Assembly (NCBI GenBank): GCA_025526915.1
Contig: JAHLKH010000075.1
Span: forward strand, 54,470 to 118,469
Direction: 5' to 3'
Source: Entophlyctis helioformis
Lineage: Eukaryota; Chytridiomycota; Chytridiomycetes; Chytridiales; Chytriomycetaceae
DNA length: 64,000 bases
Shown: positions 52,150 to 64,000 of the stretch, in pieces
Numbering within the stretch: the stretch's first letter is position 1
Layout: every line of letters begins with the position of its first letter
The notes under the pieces: model-generated
Seen by the model: only the letters and a program-made list of their open reading frames with translations
Databases searched by the model: none
Told to the model about the DNA's origin: nothing
Position numbers and translations under genes: made by a program

Positions 52150-53457
52150 TCAAACGAGGAGGAGGATCGAGAGACACTGGGCAGCAGCCAGAACAAAGAG
52201 GTACAGCACGCGCCGCTTGCGACCGTCGCGGCCAACCACGTTGTTGGTGCTCTGGTCAGGAACCACCAAGTACCGGAGCGTGCGAAGCTGCATTTCCAGC
52301 ACAGCATCAGAGCCAGGCATCCGTCAGAGATCCATCCAGCATGGGCCACAGCCAAGTCACACGCACCGTAAAGAATCCATAGGATAACACGATATAGAGC
52401 GCGGGCACGAGGAGCCACCACGCCAATTCGGCCAGAGCCAGCCCAGCAATAAACTTTCCAGCCACGAGTGCGTTGATCCTGTCGACAGAAGGCCGCATGT
52501 GAGCAGCACAATCGGCCTGGGTCAATACCATCGAGCCACACACTTACGTAACAAACTTGTAGCCGCAGTATGCAATAAGGTCGATAAACCCAGCATCGTT
52601 CGTGACGTTGAGCAGGTAGAACCCAGACTTGAGAAACAGAACCTCGAACATGATAATAAAGAACGCGCCGGTGGCCGTCTTTCCAAGCACGTCCGGCGTG
52701 AACCTGTCCCCCATGCATCAGTCCGGGATTCCCACGCAATACAGGCCAGCAGGCGCCGGCAGTCAACTCACTTGATGCCATTGTTGCTCGCGCCGAGCGT
52801 GAGGCCGACAAGAAGGACGTAGGTCACATACGACATGACAGGCAGGTATAGGTCGGGGGCATTCAGATCTTCGCGCGGCGGCGCGTATCCTTCCGCCTGG
52901 CCGCTCTGCTCGGACCGACGCACCAGCCGCGACCACGACTTGTGGCGGAAGGGGAACAGCAGCAATCGCAGCTTGGACAGCACGTATGGAGTGCTCACGT
53001 TGAAGTAGTACCGCAGCTGGACCACATTCACATACCGGTTGATCTGGGGCAGACATACACACAGACACACAGAGTGAGCAAGGCAGCCGTGAATGTTGCG
53101 GGCTTGCAAGGCAGTCTTACGTTCTGGTTGACGTTTTGCTGCACTTGGGCAAAGGCTTGGGTGCCGAGTTGCATGCCGATCTGGCCGGCCGCGCTGCCCT
53201 GGAAGTCGCTGATAAAGTTGGGCGTGCCCTGGGCAGTACCAAACAGACTGGGCCCGCCAGCTGCAGCCGTGGCTGCTGCGCCCGTCTGTCCTTGAGCCTG
53301 GACGCCCGATGTGCCGACTGATCCAGCCGATGCACCAAAGAAAGGCGATCTGCCGGCAGGCTGCTGCTGAGGTTGTTGCTGGGCCAAGTACGGGTTGGAG
53401 TACCCGGACGCACCACCACCGGCAGCGCCAGCCGCAGCAAGTCCTGCTCCGTACATG

Positions 53458-53504
<47 letters not shown>

Positions 53505-53915
53505 GGCAGACGCGGACGGCGTGTAACCGCCGCCAGCGCCGACGCCGCCAGACGAGGCGTAGTAGCCGGCACTTGCACCGGCAGCACCAGCGGGGGTAGG
53601 TTGCTGGCCGTACATGTACGGCTGGTACGAGCCTGCCGCCGGTGCGGCTGGCTGAGAAGGAGCACCGCCCATGGACTGCTGCTGGCCGTACCCGTATCCG
53701 AAGCCTGCACCAGCGCCAGCATAACCACCGCCACCCTGCGCCTGCTGTTGGTCCTGCTGGCCCGTCAGGATCCTGTGGCTCGAGTACTGTGGCACGGGCG
53801 CCTGCAGCGGCGGTGGAGAGCGGGTCGGGGGTCGGCCCTGCTGCTGCTGCTGCTGTTGCTGCTGCTGGCCATACCCTTGCTGTGGCTGGCCATAACCTTG
53901 TCCGCCTTGGTACAT
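52150..53915 (-). CDS. YIF1: YIF1, Golgi/ER Yip1-interacting factor
   Basis: Five exons (53915-53121, 53043-52772, 52703-52548, 52478-52367, 52287-52150) give 490 residues. YIF1 works with YIP1 in COPII vesicle traffic between ER and Golgi. The first 265 residues are Gln/Gly/Tyr/Ala-rich, longer than the usual fungal N-terminus. The domain itself is clear: INRYVNVVQLRYYFNVSTPY, LFPFRHKSW, NAPDLYLPVMSYVTYVLLVG, FTPDVLGKTATGAFF, LIAYCGYKFV and the last helices ending RRVLYLFVLAAAQ. Five hydrophobic segments match the family topology. The mobile element starts a few hundred bases upstream of this gene. Confidence 0.9.
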
Positions 53916-54113
53916 GTCTACGTCTGTCTGACCCACAGGGTTGAGTGCGACGTGGCTGGAAGATCTGGGCCCGATATTGATACAATTACCAAGGATTTTG
54001 GAGTTAAATTCGACCCAAGAGGCGTCGAGAAGAAGCCCACATATCACGTGATTGAAGGTTCGAGTCAGCAAAGACATGCGACGACAGGTGGGCGAGGCAC
54101 ATCCAACAGCATC
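53916..54113. promoter_or_regulatory. YIF1 upstream region next to the mobile element
   Basis: This short gap holds no gene. A CACGTG box occurs near 54046. The left boundary of the mobile element probably falls near 54100-54114, but no target-site duplication can be recognised from one end only. Confidence 0.35.
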
Positions 54114-54162
54114 TCACCTTCTATTGAAGTGACCCGTTAGGTCGATCGGGAGGTTCCCCGAT
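54114..54162 (-). ncRNA. Candidate Fanzor guide-RNA scaffold (hairpins after the stop codon)
   Basis: Read on the minus strand directly after the Fanzor TGA are three hairpins: ATCGGG-GAACCT-CCCGAT (54162-54145), GACC-TAACG-GGTC (54143-54131) and TCACTTC-AATA-GAAgGTGA (54132-54114). The second and third share two bases, so they may alternate. In known TnpB and Fanzor loci the omega/f-RNA overlaps or follows the 3' end of the nuclease gene and ends at the element boundary, with the guide taken from the flank. Position and structure fit that, but no expression evidence is available. Confidence 0.45.
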
Positions 54163-57100
54163 TCAAAGTGTTGTTGTTGGCAGACATGGCAGCATGATCT
54201 GATCCCATGAGGCCACATGCGACTTGAAGGGAAGCAGATCGGGTGACGGAGGCTGCTGGACGACAGGCTGATCAGGCGGTGTCACGAGCAGCATGATGTG
54301 ATGTTGTGCACGCCACTGGATGTCATGATGAGTTGCCTTGATGTCTGCCAGGTACTCTGGCGTGGCTGGATTGCTGTCAGGTGGCGTGTGCGTCAAGTAG
54401 AGCGGTCGTTGTCCATAGAGCAGATGCCACAGTGCGACCATCCCGATGTTGGTGGCTCCAAGCACGTCTCGGTGGTAGACAGTCGTGCATGGTATGCACT
54501 CGTAGCGTCGCAGGTTGGTGCGGTTCTCGTATGGGATCCGCTGCTTGCACTGCGGGCACATCTGGCTGGTCAGGTTCTCATTGCAGCGGTAGATCTGTGT
54601 GTGTGAGTGCATGATCGTGTGGTCAGTTGGTGCACAGATGGATGGATGGACAGCGTGGCATCAGACGCACATAGGCATATCCAGACGACCGCAGATGCCT
54701 GATGAGAAACTTCTCAAACACAGCGTGCCGGCCACCTTGGCCTGTAAAGTCAATGCCAAATGCCCACACAACGGGAATGTCCTTCTCTGGGTTGCTGACA
54801 GGGAGGCCTTGAGATGCAGCTGATGCGCGCTTGCCAGTGGTCGATCCTGCCAGCTTCATGATGCCCTCAAGGGCGTTTCCGCGATCAGACGTGCGGCTGC
54901 TGCGCATGGTGAACCGCTTGGCTTGACCTTCTGTGGAATGCCATGTCATGCCATGCCATCCAGTGCAATCAGCAGGCGATCAAGCAGCATGGCGACCGTG
55001 TCAATGGGCATCCAGAATCAGAGAAACGTACCCGTGCATTCAGGAATGGCGAGCAGTACGCATGGCAGCGCAGATCCCAAAAGGCTCTCTCGCCAGGCTT
55101 GACGTTTGGATTGGCATGCTTTGCTGTCTTGAATGCAATGGCTGCCTGGACGTCGGTCGCCTTGGCATATCGATTGTTGAGCCTGACACAAGAGGCAGGC
55201 ACTGTGAGTTGATCTGGTCAAGAGTGCGCGTGGCAGAGTCATTGCATGCATACCACCGCTGAAGGCTGTGCTCGGCTCGTGCCATGCCAGAGGAGAGCAC
55301 GTAGTTGGACTCGAGGGTATAGGTGAAGGTTGCCAGATCCACCAGCATGCTGGACGCGCCATACATGTACCGCTCGCCCCAATCAATGCCAACAATCCGC
55401 ACAAACCGGTAGCCCTTGTTGGTGAACAACTTGTTGGCTTTGACAATGTTGAGCAATCGCTGCGAGGCGTAGAAGCTGAGCTTGCCCTGTCATGCCATGA
55501 CATGAGTGAGGAATGTGCAATGCATGTGCACCAATGCGCGAGGTTGGCATGCAAGTGACTTACAGGATTGGGCGTGTATGGCTTGGTGGCTGTGGATGGC
55601 ATGTCAGTTGCTGCTGGTGCAAGTGTGCGTCATAATGGCACAGCAACTCACATGTGCCATCCAAGTGATCATGCCCATCATGCCCATCATGCCCATCGTC
55701 ATCGTCATCGTCATCATCAGGCATGCCATCAGCAAGCCGGGCTGCTCGCCTAAAGATGCCATGTTGGAGCATGCAGATCAAGGCGGCAGTCAGAACCAAT
55801 GTGTGCACCAAAGCATTCAAGCACGCCACATACTGCGTGGCGACTCTGGACGGTCTGTGCGATAGTCCAGCGCCAGCTGAAAGATGCTGTATCCGTCCGT
55901 CCGGAAGCTGCCCACCGCGGTCGGTTTGCTTGGAATTGCAGGAGGAAGACCATCGATCACGGCGTCTATAAACTCCTGGCACTCCTTGCCAACCAGACCC
56001 TCGTGCTCAGCCAGTTGCATCGCATCAGCAATGACTGCGTCATTTGCTTGGACCTGCTCAAACACCTCCTTGTCGGCCTCGTCTGGCGTCTGATAGCGGC
56101 CTTTCTTGGGCCGGAGGCCGGGAAGGAGTATGTTGAGGATACAGAGCTCCTTGCCATTGCTGAACGCCTTCTTGATCGTCGTGTTGGATGACGCGAGGCC
56201 CAAGCTGGCTTTTTGGTAGTCTTGGATAAAAGTGGAGTGTCAGCATCATATCATGTAGACATGGCATAAACAAGTGCGACCTACTGAGTACAGCAAGGAG
56301 CTGCAGTCGCAAGTATGCCAAAGCAGCACTCTGCTCGCCACGGATGCGATCACCCCTACTCCCCATCACCGCCCAAAAGAGCGTCGTCTCGGTGATGAGG
56401 ATGAAGGGATCGCGGCTGGCTGCTTGCGGGCACAGCTTGTTTGTCGTGCCAGCAAGCTTGGACAGCTCGTAAAAGATCACGATCTCTGACCGAGACACAT
56501 CAGGCACCAGCGTCTTGAGCTCGTGCAGCTCTTGCGGGATGTATCAATACCGCTGTCCTCAGTGGCCGAGGAAGAGCTGGATGCCGCGTCCTTGGTGGTG
56601 GCTGCCTTCCTGCCCCGTCGCTTCTTGGGCCTGCCGCCCTTGTTGGCTGACGAAGAGGTGGACCGGCCCCGCTTGAGACTTGAGGTGGGAGGAGCAGTGT
56701 CCAAAGTGGCCAGCGGTGTGGCGTCCTCGATCGCTGGTGGTGTAGCGTCCTTGGCAGCCTTGGCAGCAGCAGCCTTGGCGGCCTTGGCAGCCTTGGCGGT
56801 CTTGAAAAGTGCCGCAATCCACACTCTCACGTCCTCAATGGATGCACTGGGCATCATCTTGAGGGCCGCAGTGACGGCCAGCTCAGACTGGCTAGAGATG
56901 TAGTGCCGCGCGAGCATGCCACACACATCCCTGGCCAGATTGCTGTAAATGTCACTCCTTGCATCCGCGCAAAGGCTGCTATCAAGCCTGTAGGGCAAGA
57001 CAGCCTCCATAGTGCCCGCGTGCACAGCGTCTGCCGTCTGCGCACTTGTGTGCATCAAGGCCGACAGCTCTGCATCTGCCTGCACCACGGCTGACAGGAT

Positions 57101-57313
57101 CGCGTCGGCCTGGATTGTCACCGTCTGCTGCGTCGCGTCCATCATGTCGACATCCATCATGGCTGCTCGCATCGTGTCCATCTGTGCCATGTCCATCATG
57201 GCTGCTTGCCGCGCGTCTTTCTGGAACGTGTCGCTGTGTGCCGTGGCCGCCTGCTGCATTGCATCAATCAGTGACATGTCCATCAGCATTGTGCACGTCT
57301 GCATCATGTCCAT
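54163..57313 (-). CDS. Fanzor, eukaryotic TnpB-like RNA-guided nuclease
   Basis: Seven exons (57313-56285, 56220-55834, 55589-55564, 55486-55254, 55182-55032, 54930-54671, 54594-54163) give about 839 residues if one base is restored near 56538 and one near 55032. RuvC-I is FVRIVGIDWGERYMYGA. Next is VVWAFGIDFTGQGGRHAVFE (the Fanzor VxxxG block), then CNENLTSQMCPQCKQR with the zinc-ribbon CPQC...CIPC, and RuvC-III VYHRDVLGATNIGM. The Glu of NENLTSQ sits where Fanzors carry their relocated catalytic Glu. The N-terminal 280 residues are unusual: Met/Asp/Ala-rich, then an AKAAKAAKAA histone-H1-like run and GRPKKRRGRK, a likely nuclear signal. Known Fanzors cut DNA with an RNA guide. Whether this copy is intact depends on the frame breaks. 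Confidence 0.8.
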
Positions 57314-57323
57314 CCGTACCGTG

Positions 57324-60300
57324 TCATCCTTCAGCTTGGCTGTGTTGGTTTGCAGCACCCTCCGCGTCCAGGTGCGATGGATCCATTTGCATGACTGTTA
57401 CGATCCAGGAGTGGATGGCATGCTTTGTTGCTTGTGGCTGCACCATCATGCTGTCCGCCAGGACATAGCCAAGATGGCGCAGCAGCATGTCCACAGCACC
57501 GCCTCCACCTGATATACTGCTGGTGAGGGCCGTAAGCAGCTCATTTGCTGATGGAACTGCTGCTGCTGCTGCTGGTGGTGGCGGCTGGACGGCTGAAGAT
57601 GAAGCGCCGGTGCTGCTGGCTGCTGTCGGCTGATTGTGCACATCATGCTCGTCCTGGATGCATGGGTCGTCAGGCTGCACAGGCAGCTCGTGCTCATCGT
57701 GCTCGTCGTGCTCGTCGTGCTCGTCTGCTCGTCCTGCTCGTCCTGCTCGTCCTGATCGTCGTGCTCGTCCTGCTCGTCCTGCTCGTCGTGCTCGTCGTGC
57801 TCGTCCTGCTCGTCCTGATCATTGTGGTCCTTGTGCTCGTCGAGGTCGCCATGCATGTTGGGTTGCTTGGCAATCTTGGCAGTATCAAAGGCGCAGATCT
57901 TGAGAGCCGTGTCACTCTCAAGAGTCACCAAGCTGCCATAGCGAGGGATCTTTGTGTCGCTGCTGTGCGGGCCGGTGCCGTACATGCGCCAAACAATGAT
58001 GCCCTGCTTGTGAACGCATCCACCTGACAAGAGCGTCGCACTCTCGTCCTCGTCAAAGTCCTTGGGGTTGACATAGTAATACTGCGTCAGCTTGCCTTGG
58101 CTTGCCTCCAGGACACAGTACTCCAGAGGCAGTGGCGCGTCTGCATTCAGCTTGACCAGATCCGCGACCATGGCGCCGATCAAGGCAAGGGCAGCACGCC
58201 ACAAGCCGGCCGTGAAATAGTTGACTGTGAGGGTGGTGTCGTGGCTGATTGAACTGGGTGTCTGCTCGGCGAGTGGTGTCTTGGTTTGGGGCCCAAAAAA
58301 CTTGGTGTTTGCGAGATCGCATGACTGCATCTCCTGCATACCACACAAGTCAGCATACACAAAGCCAAGCAAACAGAGCAGCATGGCGATCAAACCCCAT
58401 ACCGCCATTTCGACAATCTGCTCAGGGCGGCTGTGTGCATTGCCTTTAGGTCTTGGCTGTCCTTTGGGATGGGTGGCCGCGGCAAGTGTCATGACTGGCA
58501 TCGCAATCATGCGGCCGAGCTTTGCAAGCTTCTGACGAGTTGCCACTCGACTGCCAGCAACCCATCTGTGGCATGACACACGTGTCAGCAAGCACATTCA
58601 AGGCACATGACATGCCATATGTCGCGTACGCCTGCTTCTTGCCAACAGTTCCAGCCTTGCGAGCACACAGCCCTGACTTCTTCTTGTTCTCTCTGATGAT
58701 CTCCTGTAGTGTGGCCTTCTCTTTTTTCTTGGCACGCTCCTTTGTGTGCGCAGCCCGCTTGGCTGCCGTGAATTGGAATGGCGCCTGTGACGGTTGGATG
58801 CAGCATCAGGCGGCCATTCCAAGTGCACCAAACACAGCCACGATTGCCAATGGTGCGCCAAACTCACCGTCGTCTCAGTGTCGGCAAGATCGCCAATGGG
58901 AAAGGTCTTGGAGCATGCCAGTGCTGCGAAAATGTTGTTGGACAACTGTGGTGGCTTGGGCGGCGGTGGAGGAGGGCCAACCTGTGGAGTGGGATGGTGA
59001 GCAATCGCGCCAAATCATTCCATGCACATGCAGTCAGTGGAAGTCGAGACGCACTGCACTTTGCTCAATGATGGACTGCAGCAGAGCGACGACCTTTTGG
59101 CGCTGATTGATGAGTGTCGGCGGTTTGGCGTTTTCTGGATGTGGACCTATGGGGTGCTCCAGGAAATACAGCCAGGCTGACGCCTTGTCGTGGATAGCAG
59201 CGACAATGGATCGCGGTGCAACTCGCGTGGTCATCCTGCCGTGGTACTCGACTTTCTGCGTCTCTGTGTCCAGTACTATGCATTCAACACAAATGGATCT
59301 GTGAGTGGATGCTGTTGAATCATTTCAATGCAATCAACACCTACTGGGAGTGGATGTATGCCGGTGGGATGCGCATGGCGGATTGGCAATCTTGTCGAGC
59401 TGCGTCTGCATTCTCATTGCTGCGTTCTGTCCAGAAGCAATGGATCAAGTCAGCCGCATTCAAAATCAGTAAATGCGCATGGTGCAAGAGCAACAGCATG
59501 CATTCAAGCCATGCAAACATACCAATGCGCGATAGATTGGCTCATCTGCTGGGAGGAGCTTAAAAATGCCATCTGCTCCAAGAAACTGCTCGCTGGCAAT
59601 CTGCAGCAGCTGGGCACTTGCTGCTTTGCAGATGGCCGCGAGGATGTCGCGACGCGTAACAGCATCGTAGCTGCTCGCAAGGCGGTTGACTGTGCACTTG
59701 ATGATGGTGTCGAGTGCCACATGGCAACCCTTCACCTCAATGAAGGCAGCATCCAACCGCCTGCTGCCAACAGTGCTGCTGACAAGCTGCTCGACCCTGC
59801 CACGTGTCAGGTGGACAAGCTGGACGCCGTTCTCAGCCTGCTGCTGCTGCTGCGCAGTATGGCTCAAGCAGCATCCATCCATCAAGCACCTGCACAATAA
59901 CAAGATCGCAGCATCAGAAACAGAAACTCAGTGTCAGTTTTGCCAGAAACGCCACAGATTCCATGCATTCATACTTCATTCCAACAGATGGAGTCGTGTT
60001 GACATCCATGTGGTTGGTGTGGTCGGCTTGAGGCTCAGATCTGTGCAAGGCATTCAATCGCGTCAATGCCATCATGTCCATGACATCCTTCAAGAATAAA
60101 CATACCTCGCGACGATCGGCGCTGTGATTGCACCAGCAGAGGCCCCAACATCATTCCGGTTGACAAAGACTTCAAATGCGTTCTTGAATGCCTGGACAAG
60201 GCTCTCATCACCATTCTTGACCAGCTCCTCGATGTACGCGTCCCTGACGCCGTCCATGAACGCCTTGGCCTTGTTAGGAGTCTCGAGGATTGCGCAGAGG

Positions 60301-61160
60301 TCAGCCGCCTTGATGTTGAGCTCTTCGACCTTGGCATCAAACCGCGCATTGACAAACTTGACCGCGGCGGCGATTCCTGGCAGGGAATGCAAGCAGAATC
60401 GCGCATGTAGACAAAGAATGGCATGTGAGTGATGGCAGATACTACAAAACAGGCGCGGCAACTCACCATGGTCATTGCGGCCAAAAAAGTCTGTATGAGA
60501 AAGCACAGCCACAGCCAGGCATGCACCGCGAAAATCCCGCACACCCAATGCAGACGCGGTTGAGGCGATACCGCCATGGTTGTATGAGCGAATCTGCCCA
60601 ACCCGCCCATGCTGCAGGTGTGTCAAAACAACACCGCAGTGCCCAGCACAAAGTGCCACCAGATCAGAGTCATTGGCAATGACTATGATCGGCTTGGCAC
60701 TGTCACAGAATACAGACTGTGAGCCATCAGTCACGGCCGAATGATCCAAGGCAATGTTACCTTGGCTCGCGAACATGGCGGGCGATGCAACAGTCTGCTT
60801 CATAATCACACCAGCAGACTGTGCATCCCTTCTTTTTGCCAGCCAGCTCACTGAGGGCCGCAGCAATGTCCTCCTTGTCGCTCTGCGTCAACGTGTAGAA
60901 CCTGTTGAGGGCATACATCTCGTCCCTGATGGCAAGCAGCAGAAGATAGTCAGCATGGCAGCCACACAGTACAGAGTAGCAAACTTACTTTGAAAGTGAT
61001 CCCGTCTGCTTGCATTCTTGGCGGCGGAACGCATACCGCAGGACCTTGACCGCCGCATGCAGCATCTTGTGGGCGCGGCTGTGGTGCACGATCTTGATTC
61101 CCGCGTCTCCGCGGAGGGGGGGTAATTCGGCGTGGGCCCATCCGACAAATGTCGGCTGAC
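57324..61160 (-). CDS. XPG/FEN1-like structure-specific nuclease of the element
   Basis: Ten well-phased exons (60925-60761, 60699-60467, 60376-60106, 59889-59523, 59426-59341, 59298-59055, 58981-58868, 58784-58630, 58565-58403, 58333-57324) plus a first exon ending at 60989 give about 940-990 residues. The XPG-I core reads CTVCWCDYEADCCIARHVRE, then IIVIANDSDLVALCAGHCGV and SHTDFFGRNDHGGIAAAVKF. These resemble the EAD, DSDL and G-D-Y/G-I-G-x-x-x-A blocks of flap endonucleases. The exact start is unclear; a run of seven C bases at about 61115 blurs the first frame. After the nuclease come a basic helix (ERAKKKEKATLQEI), a Asp/Glu/Gln/His repeat (frame break near 57725) and a helical end. It may be fused to Fanzor downstream. 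Confidence 0.6.
57675..57850. repeat. 9-bp tandem repeat coding DEH/DEQ
   Basis: About 15-18 imperfect copies of GACGAGCA(G/C), read on the minus strand, encode DEHDEQDEQDEH-type acidic sequence inside the XPG-like gene. The unit and lack of spacers exclude a CRISPR array. One copy lacks a base near 57725. Confidence 0.85.
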
Positions 61161-61223
61161 ACTTTATAAGACCAATTTGAGAATGAACAAAATTACAAAC
61201 TTTGCTTGACTTGAGAAAACTTC
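61161..61223. promoter_or_regulatory. Bidirectional promoter of the mobile element
   Basis: Only 63 bp separate the XPG-like reading frame from the transposase ATG. An A/T-rich box (CTTTATAAG, about 61161-61169, nearly palindromic) could serve as TATA element on either strand. The sequence around it is A/T-rich compared with the coding flanks. Confidence 0.4.
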
Positions 61224-64000
61224 ATGGCACGTCCAACACAACAGCCAGTGCACCCCGCACCTCCAGCCGCCACCGACCAGCCACCGTCGGGTCAAGCAGA
61301 CTCAACGAACGCTTGCACCGGAGCGAAGACTCTGAACTACGGCTTGGGCTTCCACCGCGAAGACGGTTCATTCGAAAGCATGACACTGGTGGACGGCAAG
61401 GGAGGAAAGGAAGACCTGCTGCCGCTCGTCAAGATCACAGATGGCCCGCATAAAGGCGTCATCTGCGTCCAGCCGTCTCGCCTCCCCTTGGTTCTGAAGA
61501 GCTTCGTGCCAAGTCGACTTAACAACAACGTCCCTGCTTTTGCCATCAAGGCGAACCTTGGCGGCCGTGAAGTATGGGTGGTGCCTCTTGACAGCATCAA
61601 CAAGCTTCGTGGCAGACTCTGGCGCCTCCAAGATCGCAGCAATCCCGGCATCGTGATGCATGGCGACGTGTCTCGGATCACTTCGGCGTTCAAGGACAGC
61701 GTCTACCAACTCCTTGATCACTATGCAAAGTACCGCGATCATCACGAAGTAAGTCTGATCACCCACGACACACAATAAGCAGTGCAATCGCTCACAATCT
61801 TCTGAACCTTGCACAATAGGTCGCCGAGACGAGTGTCTTTGCAGCTGCCAACGCGCATGATGGAGATGACTTGGATTCGGAGCGCCGAGTCATTGCATTC
61901 CGATGTCCACAACCAGCGACCACGCCCACCAAACCTGCCAGCATACCAGCAAATGCGCAAAACCGCCGCTTGGACAGACCTAGCCTAATCCGAAAGGCTC
62001 AAGAGCTGCAGGACGAAGTCAAGACGTTATCCTTAGCCAACAAGGAGCAGAAGTTAAAACTGCGCAAAGCGAAAGAGGACATCGTCAAGCTCACCAATCA
62101 ACTCAACTCCCTCAAGAAACACAAGGATGTGCTTCGCATTGTCGAGGTCTGGGATGGCCGCTCGGAGTACGATCGCAACCTTATCATGGCGCTGGTTGAG
62201 AATCTCTGTTCCAAGGAGCGTCGCGTCAGTCCCATCGCGTTGCAGTTCATCAAAATGTTGCTCCGTGCACATCGAGGACGTGGGCGTCAACCCAAAGGCG
62301 TTTACACGGAAGAGATCGAGCGATTCCATACGTACTTGAATTTGCTTCCTGGCGGCCGTCGGATCCTGGCTTTTCTTGGCGCCAACTTCGTCATGCCCAG
62401 CCCGAAAACCATCAAGAACTGGACCGCCGGGATGGAGGGCCAATCGGTCGAGCCCACAGTAGCAACGCTGCAAGCTATTGCGGCTCAGATCCAGGACACG
62501 CAAAAACGGCAGGGGCTCGAGTCGGTCCAAGTACCGTATACCTTGGCGCTTGATGAGGTGCACGTCAACACGTGGCGATGGGTAGAGTCGCAAATCGTGG
62601 GAGACCGTGTGCAGGTGTTGTACGCTGCAAACAACAACTACGACGTGTTGACGGGCGAAGGCACTGTCCAACAGACTGAAAGGGTAAGTGCATTCTTAGA
62701 CTGTGCATGTTGGCTGTGGAAAATGCACCAGTCACTGACTTTCAATCCCAGCTACTCACAGAGAAGCTGAAGGTCAGAGATTCCATCATCACGGCGCTCA
62801 TGCGTCCTACAGAAGAGCCAGGTGCAAATGGTAATGTCAATGACAAGCCTAGATATCAACCAGCAATGTTAATGGCATGCCAATACTCACACAAATCTGC
62901 CACAGCTGGCCACATGACCAGTGGTTTGCGGACGCTGCTTGAGCCCCTGCAAGGAAAAATGGATCAGCTTGCCGCCACCATCAAGTCGCACAAGGAGAAA
63001 CGCGACAAACTGTGGGAGGATGTCCACAAGGGAAGGCCCAACAAAGCGAAAGGCAAGCGCGTTCCGACCGCCACAGCTGGGTCCGTGAGCACGGAGGATT
63101 CCGAGACAGCGGCATCCACCGTCACTATGGAAGATGCAGTAAGGGCGGCAAGTCCCACGGACACGGCGCCGTACGTCCGCTTAAAGATGCAGCAGTTTGC
63201 GTCTCTGGAAAGCCGCATCGCTGTCCTTGAAGATCTTGCCAATCTTGCCAACAGTTTGGTGGTGTCCATCAAGGATCTGGTGCACACTGCTGGACAAGGA
63301 GATGCAGCGTCAGCGACAGCAAAAGCAGCAGCAGTAGGTTTGGTGCGGCAGCTGTTTGATGTGCTGCGCCATGTCGTGACTGCCTGCATGGAGCCGGCTA
63401 CCTCGATCCAGGCGTTTGTTCTTTCTGACCAGTGCGGCCAAAAGCAGTGGTTCCTTGGAGCCGTCCCCATCACGGCAGCAAATGCCAAAGCTACGCGGCA
63501 CGTGTCCAATGGCATCGTGGATGTCCTGAAAGGGGCAGGCATTCATGTGTCAGTCGTAGCGTGCGACGGCGGTTCGTTATCGGCTTTGGAGGACCTTCGT
63601 GGCGATGAGATCTTCACCTCGCTCCGCGCTGTTATCCGCTCTGTCGACATGTCCAAATTCTTGAGCCCTGATGCTGGCAAGAGAGGGGCAGCGCAGTACT
63701 TTGCTGATAAGGCTTGTGGCCAGATTGCCGAGGTGGTGCAGATTGCTGCAGACAAAGTCCGCGCGGAAAATGTCAATGGCGGTCTTGCCGGCATTCCTCA
63801 CCTATATCGCGATCTGGAAATTGCTCTCAAGGTTGTGGTTGACAAGGTAAGAAAGTGGCCAAGACGATCAACAATGGAAAGCATTCTGCAAATGAGGCAT
63901 GGGCTTACACATCCGATGCCTTCAAGTGCAAAGAATGGCTGGCCAACAAGAGTGGCGTCAATCTGGAACAGTCGAGCATGTTGGGAGCAGCCATCAGTCT
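61224..64000 (+). CDS. P-element/THAP9-like DDE transposase (partial, runs off the right edge)
   Basis: Exons 61224-61748, 61820-62683, 62752-62830 and 62906 onward are in phase for more than 800 residues. The first about 175 residues are an unknown domain, with no THAP zinc finger seen. A coiled coil follows (AQELQDEVKTLSLANKEQKL), then SPIALQFIKMLLRAHRG and ILAFLGANFVMPSPKTIKNW, which resemble the helix-turn-helix and LPS-TLxxW block before the RNase H domain of P transposases. YTLALDEVHVNTWRW supplies a first catalytic Asp candidate. After an insert, FVLSDQCGQKQWFLGAVPIT and AGIHVSVVACDGGSLSALED supply the second. At 63847 an apparent GTAAGA donor is better read as a lost A, because VVDKVKKVAKTINNGKHSAN continues to the edge. 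Confidence 0.6.

Follow-up and report, generated by a model that had tools for sequence, protein, structure and literature searches.

A Fanzor gene and a probable XPG/FEN-superfamily nuclease gene carried by a multi-copy element of Entophlyctis helioformis, in a copy probably interrupted by a second transposon

The window, a 64,000-nucleotide stretch of DNA, forms the right end of contig C75 in the Entophlyctis helioformis genome (29.57 Mb), and the contig stops at window position 64000. As shown in Table 1, a Fanzor gene lies on the minus strand toward this end, an XPG-like gene lies upstream of it on the same strand, and a divergent gene on the plus strand follows. Protein searches with the Fanzor and XPG models matched annotated E. 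helioformis proteins in every case (3 of 3 and 6 of 6 matches, respectively). To the left of these genes are two open reading frames, in the region 52771-53001 and at 53031-53915, which we infer to be a single YIF1-family host gene; the first ATG of this gene is 52 bp from the end of the Fanzor/XPG element at 53968.

Table 1. Features at the right end of the window (window positions).
Feature	Position	Strand	Basis
Host gene, YIF1 family	52771..53915	-	PF03878, E 5e-31 on 52771-53001; 295-aa ORF 53031-53915
Fanzor-side terminus GGCCCGATATTGATACAATTACCAAG	53968..53993	.	sharp homology boundary; flanks of other copies differ
Candidate omegaRNA/reRNA scaffold, Fanzor stop to terminus	53968..54169	-	conservation; structure weakly supported
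Fanzor gene, core exons	54163..56507	-	PF07282 and splice-site reading
Fanzor exons	56285 and upstream; 56220-55834; 55589-55564; 55486-55254; 55182-55032; 54930-54671; 54594-54163	-	splice-site reading
Ealt glutamate, zinc ribbon, RuvC-III (NENLTSQMCPQC...CIPC...HRDVLGA)	54440..54594	-	profile match and motif reading
RuvC-I exon (VGIDWGERYMYGAS)	55254..55486	-	motif reading and splice sites
XPG/FEN-superfamily nuclease gene (cut within the first coding exon)	60090..61113	-	homology to P0004-P0009; sub-cut-off PF12813; fold; continuation in other copies
Second transposon, apparently nested; left terminus GAGGGGGGGTAATT	61114..64000	+	terminus like that of the C61 element; runs off contig end
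Transposase-like gene	61224..63846, continuing past contig end	+	ORFs, splice sites, relatives at C172 and C76
Transposase-like gene exons	61224-61748, 61820-62683, 62752-62821, 62906-63846	+	ORFs and splice sites

The presence of a Fanzor, which an earlier note on this DNA had stated, was confirmed on the minus strand. The zinc ribbon matched PF07282 in Pfam (E 3e-9; score 37.3 bits, cut-off 26.3 bits), and RuvC-I (VGIDWG), a TS-x-x-C4 ribbon and RD were all read. The Fanzor1 motif given in the main text of Bao and Jurka (2013, PMC3627910), namely D...[TS][TS]xx, a C4 zinc finger and then RD, was found as GID...LTSQMC..C...C..C...RD in the window and in other copies. Yoon (2023, PMC10711439) described as a Fanzor fingerprint an Ealt glutamate placed shortly before the zinc finger, together with a RuvC-I motif that is near exclusively DPG. 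The glutamate is present (NENLTSQMCPQC); RuvC-I instead reads DWG in all 21 loci read (GIDWG in 16 and SFDWG in 5, where the GIDWG pattern was restricted to GIDxG and L002 and L048 are one place). In the exon map, splice-site reading places a 71-nt intron at 55253-55183, and a 20-nt intron was rejected. Compared with L005, L032, L035 and L041, the window lacks one base near position 54921, and L037 carries an extra one (a comparison limited to the six loci that showed the pattern); by the splice-read exon map, the Fanzor frame of the window looks broken at this point. The protein model used for the Pfam, PDB, protein and locus searches contained 17 intron-derived residues and bridged the frame break; with this model, no PDB sequence, and hence no solved Fanzor, was matched at E≤1.

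The earlier note had also placed an XPG/FEN1-like nuclease beside the Fanzor, and the motifs and a low-confidence fold agree with this assignment, with Pfam agreeing below its curated cut-off. The spliced XPG model of the window matched no Pfam family at E≤1, and all five annotated relatives (5 of 5) matched PF12813 (XPG_I_2) under that cut-off, at a best E of 0.0047. A first structure model was unusable (mean pLDDT 37.7). When a low-confidence model was used in fold comparison, 5'-nucleases were top-ranked; when the XPG profile was compared with PDB sequences, ribosomal and other chance matches were returned and no 5'-nuclease. The set of acidic active-site residues was found in the motifs VDxLS, FHVDG, EAD and NDSDL, and these residues presumably correspond to those of FEN1. 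The first two acidic motifs are retained in nine copies that are just 38-53% identical, and the last two are retained in L016 and L020. These motifs, the sub-threshold Pfam matches and the low-confidence fold support the identification of the minus-strand gene as an XPG/FEN-superfamily nuclease. In P0007 and L018 (L018:6-203), the FHVDG motif has N for D, suggesting that these two may be decayed or inactive copies. At position 61114, the XPG coding exon continues uninterrupted in 10 of the 10 fetched copies that reach that point (L032-L038 and L045-L047, among which L035-L037 have one flank in common), and the window switches to GAGGGGGGGTAATT.

On the Fanzor side, homology to other copies begins at about 53968, and the flanks beyond are mostly unrelated, the exception being the flank common to L035, L036 and L037. 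When the genome was searched with the 23-bp core of this terminus, allowing up to 3 mismatches, 104 and 87 occurrences (191 in total) were found, compared with 0 for the reversed control. Of the 191, 100 were listed. Among these, 65 had a zinc ribbon from the list on the opposite strand, lying 150-1000 bp inward, and none had one on the same strand within 1 kb; the other 35 had no zinc ribbon among the matches listed. A complete element of this outer type is present on contig C24. It is 8,965 bp long, has imperfect inverted ends that start with GGCCCG, and is flanked by an 8-bp target-site duplication (TSD), CGGCTTTG (8/8). To its right, the flank contains an SNF2-type helicase gene. A tblastn search found no relative of the window's plus-strand gene in the C24 element. 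On C35 there is a 989-bp deletion copy of the same type (TSD 7/8). The left part of the window is of the type that does not have the outer GAGGGGTGGG end. The outer sequence, from 53968, is probably one member of a multi-copy family of Entophlyctis elements with a Fanzor and an XPG/FEN-superfamily nuclease as cargo.

The neighbourhoods of these elements were also inspected. At 24 flank loci looked at, 13 flanks were scanned for ORFs, and in 5 of these 13 the Fanzor-side end lay 4-52 bp upstream of a recognisable host-gene start codon. The genes concerned are of YIF1, gamma-tubulin complex, Myb, semialdehyde dehydrogenase and class-V aminotransferase type (window and left flanks of L004, L007, L043 and L044); further flanks have a nearby ATG, with no Pfam match above the cut-off. 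A gene also starts in the right flank of the C24 element, and an orientation bias is therefore not claimed. In L035 (C36), L036 (C60) and L037 (C122), the elements have one left flank in common and lie 24 bp before the same ATG, which suggests a duplicated locus, haplotypes or one site used repeatedly.

Between the Fanzor stop and the terminus, mean column identity was 85% over 23 copies of two types. If this region encodes a guide RNA, the guide would come from the flank, as the complement of about 53948-53967. Two predicted hairpins pair in about 99% of cells, with most pairs invariant; 2 of 48 predicted pairs are compensatory, and the named structure has one compensatory cell, a number also reached by slid controls. 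A third hairpin is mismatched in most copies, and the folding energy of the window's candidate RNA was not unusual (z-score -0.97). The conservation of the region is clear, and a structured RNA is weakly supported by these predictions.

The divergent gene that the earlier note had observed begins, on the plus strand, beside a transposon terminus. This terminus recurs on C61 in an independent 2,013-bp element, which starts with GAGGGG...TAATT, ends with AATTACC...TC and has a 9-bp TSD, CTTTCCGCC (9/9). Because the contig stops at 64000, the window allows neither the right end of the inner element nor its TSD to be read. A pattern search for inverted termini gave 4 and 1 occurrences forward and 0 reverse, and the far ends differ in sequence. 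The note's assignment of the gene to a P/THAP9-like transposase was not upheld by the searches: no transposase family, THAP domain or P-type RNase H domain was found in Pfam at E≤10, nothing relevant was found among PDB sequences at E≤10, and the protein search gave no match at E≤1. We call the gene transposase-like because of its transposon setting and of features known from P elements. Transposons of the P superfamily generate TSDs of 8 bp. Here, TSDs of 8 bp were found for the outer type (C24 and C35, as above) and a 9-bp TSD was found at C61 for the type of element that bears the plus-strand gene; a 9-bp TSD by itself does not make the GAGGGG-type element a MuDR element. The long body of the gene was found elsewhere in the genome at C172 and C76 only. 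At C172:1316-8041 (L012 and L051), another copy of the transposase-like gene contains an LTR retrotransposon, Ty3/gypsy-like by eye, whose LTR stretches are 99.6% identical and which is probably a recent insertion. C76 was considered as the other haplotype of the window and rejected, given that no second full match to the left flank of the window was found. C172:1, considered as the sequence that follows C75, was likewise rejected; the LTR retrotransposon interrupts its copy, and an XPG start is absent beside it among the matches listed.

The earlier note had the three genes in one element, and the genome was searched for other copies in which they occur together. A genome scan with PF07282 gave at least 150 places, from 205 candidates, and these served as the Fanzor list for the linkage counts; 150 of 200 XPG matches were listed and merged into 78 loci. 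A Fanzor zinc ribbon was found 3-12 kb downstream on the same strand at no fewer than 42 of these 78 XPG loci, in 37 cases at 5.28-6.07 kb, compared with 1 on the opposite strand and 0 upstream. The other 36 had no Fanzor at 3-12 kb among the matches listed and include the window itself and loci close to contig ends; some of them are accounted for by Fanzors outside the matches listed. For exon 1 of the plus-strand gene, the best 40 of 61 matches were tallied (the 21 weaker ones are mostly second pieces, and also include C168 and C25:144048). In 15, a Fanzor among the matches listed lay 7.4-14.5 kb upstream, on the opposite strand; 10, the window included, had a listed XPG match within 3 kb. 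When 16 such loci were fetched (L015-L030), an XPG start was found divergently upstream in 11, an AATTACC right end in 11 and a GAGGGG...TAATT left end in 4. Far left ends were fetched for six; in four, a GGCCCG-type terminus followed a run of fixed bases, three of these reading through all 48 fixed bases to GAGGGGTGGG, and in two the fetched pieces missed the terminus.

These loci reveal GAGGGG-ended elements of about 10 kb that contain a minus-strand Fanzor, a minus-strand XPG gene and a divergent gene. Three were read at both ends: C38 (10,049 bp; TSD 9/9, with the tenth base also agreeing), C331 (10,336 bp; 7 of the 8 TSD bases in hand agreeing) and C2 (10,270 bp; no TSD match), and a clear 9-bp TSD is present in one of the three. 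The divergent gene of this type resembles the window's gene through exon 1 and into the beginning of exon 2, and scans of pieces of it revealed no transposase domain. In L016, L019 and L020, a GAGGGG terminus is also present upstream of the exon-1 gene; the sequences are homologous on both sides and therefore represent one junction. In L016 and L020, this terminus separates XPG from the exon-1 gene, at a distance of about 0.7-0.8 kb from the XPG match. A further arrangement was seen with relatives of exon 2 (30-48% identity, 39 places): XPG lies 1.6-2.0 kb downstream on the same strand in 10, and Fanzor 7.7-8.4 kb downstream in 9. (These are 39 of 45 rows; the window itself, C172, C169, C145 and two second pieces were left out.) Fanzor and XPG thus stay paired in no fewer than three element architectures. 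Mosaics were observed as well. L038 (C140) and L041 (C293) join an outer GAGGGG-type left end to Fanzor/XPG sequence of the GGCCCG type; in another mosaic type (C78, C236, C23, C25, C52 and C151), the region upstream of XPG is 93-94% common with loci that bear a 42-45%-identical exon-1 gene.

The window is probably best explained by two transposons, of which the inner (from 61114) landed in the first coding exon of XPG in the outer (from 53968). All ten comparable copies run on in XPG coding sequence where the window does not, and the C61 element ends in the same terminus; therefore, the plus-strand gene starts at the end of another element, inside XPG. The inner element would be a DNA transposon in its own right, having GAGGGG...TAATT ends and carrying the transposase-like gene, and the outer element may have been moved by a transposase acting from elsewhere. 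An early reading of simple nested insertion with no link between the genes was revised, as XPG, Fanzor and the divergent gene occur together elsewhere. Because XPG lies divergently beside exon-1 genes in 11 of the 16 fetched loci, an internal deletion in a three-gene element would leave a similar junction, with the GAGGGG sequence marking where the deletion closed between XPG, now without its start, and the divergent gene. The roughly 10-kb elements have the same gene orientation as the window, and the GAGGGG terminus between XPG and the exon-1 gene in L016 and L020 makes the two-transposon reading slightly less firm. Nevertheless, we consider such a deletion unlikely: the left part of the window is of the type without the outer end of the 10-kb elements, none of the 61 exon-1 matches lies beside another fetched copy of that type, and the junction coincides exactly with a terminus at which a true element ends on C61. 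That this copy is one intact composite element, in which Fanzor, XPG and a P-type transposase move together, was the proposal of the earlier note and is very improbable, despite the adjacency of the three genes and the related arrangements elsewhere. Independent boundaries around the Fanzor/XPG pair and the transposase, which the note had named as evidence against a single element, are present in this copy at 53968 and, inside the XPG exon, at 61114, leaving XPG without its first coding part; moreover, the Fanzor frame looks broken and the P family is unconfirmed. The single-element proposal does hold for the 10-kb relatives, in which a gene sharing exon 1 accompanies the pair; it does not hold for the copy in the window. 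Terminal repeats and TSDs, which the note had expected to delimit the element, were found on C24 (inverted GGCCCG ends, 8-bp TSD) and a TSD on C38 (9/9), but none on C2. In this copy both nucleases look broken, the Fanzor by a frame shift and XPG by the interruption, and the copy is probably an inactive relic.

As for function, the conserved candidate RNA downstream of the Fanzor, extended into the flank, could guide the Fanzor to cut the unoccupied site, and the XPG enzyme could trim flaps or gaps while repair copies the element or retains it. On this basis we tentatively suggest, with rather less than even confidence, that the two genes may form a two-nuclease RNA-guided homing cassette, in which the Fanzor would cut empty sites and the flap-type nuclease would help to process the ends, and which would have been captured repeatedly by different transposons of this species. 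If so, the window would show the cassette with a second transposon inserted into it, and the 10-kb type would be the cassette nested in a GAGGGG-ended element; in the latter, 48 fixed bases separate the end of the RNA scaffold from the flank, and therefore the RNA boundary would have moved or the guide would be fixed. It is about equally conceivable, whichever structural reading is adopted, that XPG and Fanzor are old passengers with no joint role, co-copied as the element amplified. Linkage can be inherited by copying, stops occur in some zinc-ribbon matches and in many XPG and exon-1 matches (introns explain part of these), and the FHVDG substitution is present in two XPG copies. What speaks against purely passive linkage is the retention of the first two XPG acidic motifs in nine divergent copies, and of the last two in L016 and L020, together with the persistence of the pair across architectures.

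Taken together, these data describe a chytrid with a large family that recurrently pairs a Fanzor with a FEN-type nuclease in several transposon architectures. The family offers a natural system in which Fanzor-driven homing and the role of end processing can be tested. It also provides a Fanzor lineage whose RuvC-I (DWG) departs from the standard, as well as two end types with which a shift of the guide RNA boundary can be tested. In the literature searched, outside of which most subscription journals fall, no report of a Fanzor-XPG pairing was found, nor any of a Fanzor with Entophlyctis; Fanzor with a chytrid appeared in Saito 2023 only, and Fanzor with a flap endonuclease gave just titles unrelated to the pairing. 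The term XPG is absent from the main text of Bao and Jurka (2013, PMC3627910).

Among known systems, the main text of Bao and Jurka (2013, PMC3627910) describes the MuDR-type Fanzor1 elements ROr-4, PBl-3 and MCi-4 in mucoromycete fungi, which resemble the present case in having a Fanzor in elements that have terminal inverted repeats and 9-bp TSDs and that lack a MuDR transposase of their own. In contrast, the outer element of the window bears GGCCCG ends, and 8-bp TSDs are seen at two copies of its type. Spu-1, with SpuFz1, of Spizellomyces punctatus is likewise a multi-copy chytrid Fanzor element with a conserved RNA region and inverted repeats (Saito 2023, PMC10432273; PMC3627910). It differs in being about 2.1 kb long, with one gene and putative TA TSDs (PMC3627910), and Saito 2023 (PMC10432273) reports no transposase within its inverted repeats. 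The Entophlyctis nuclease shares with the XPG/FEN/EXO1 5'-nuclease superfamily (PF12813) its acidic motifs and, in a low-confidence model, a similar fold, but it falls under the Pfam cut-off and is borne by a transposon. The Mariner element PGv-1, in the main text of PMC3627910, also combines a transposase, a second endonuclease (GIY-YIG) and a Fanzor in one element; its transposase and its nuclease fold are other than those of the Entophlyctis elements.
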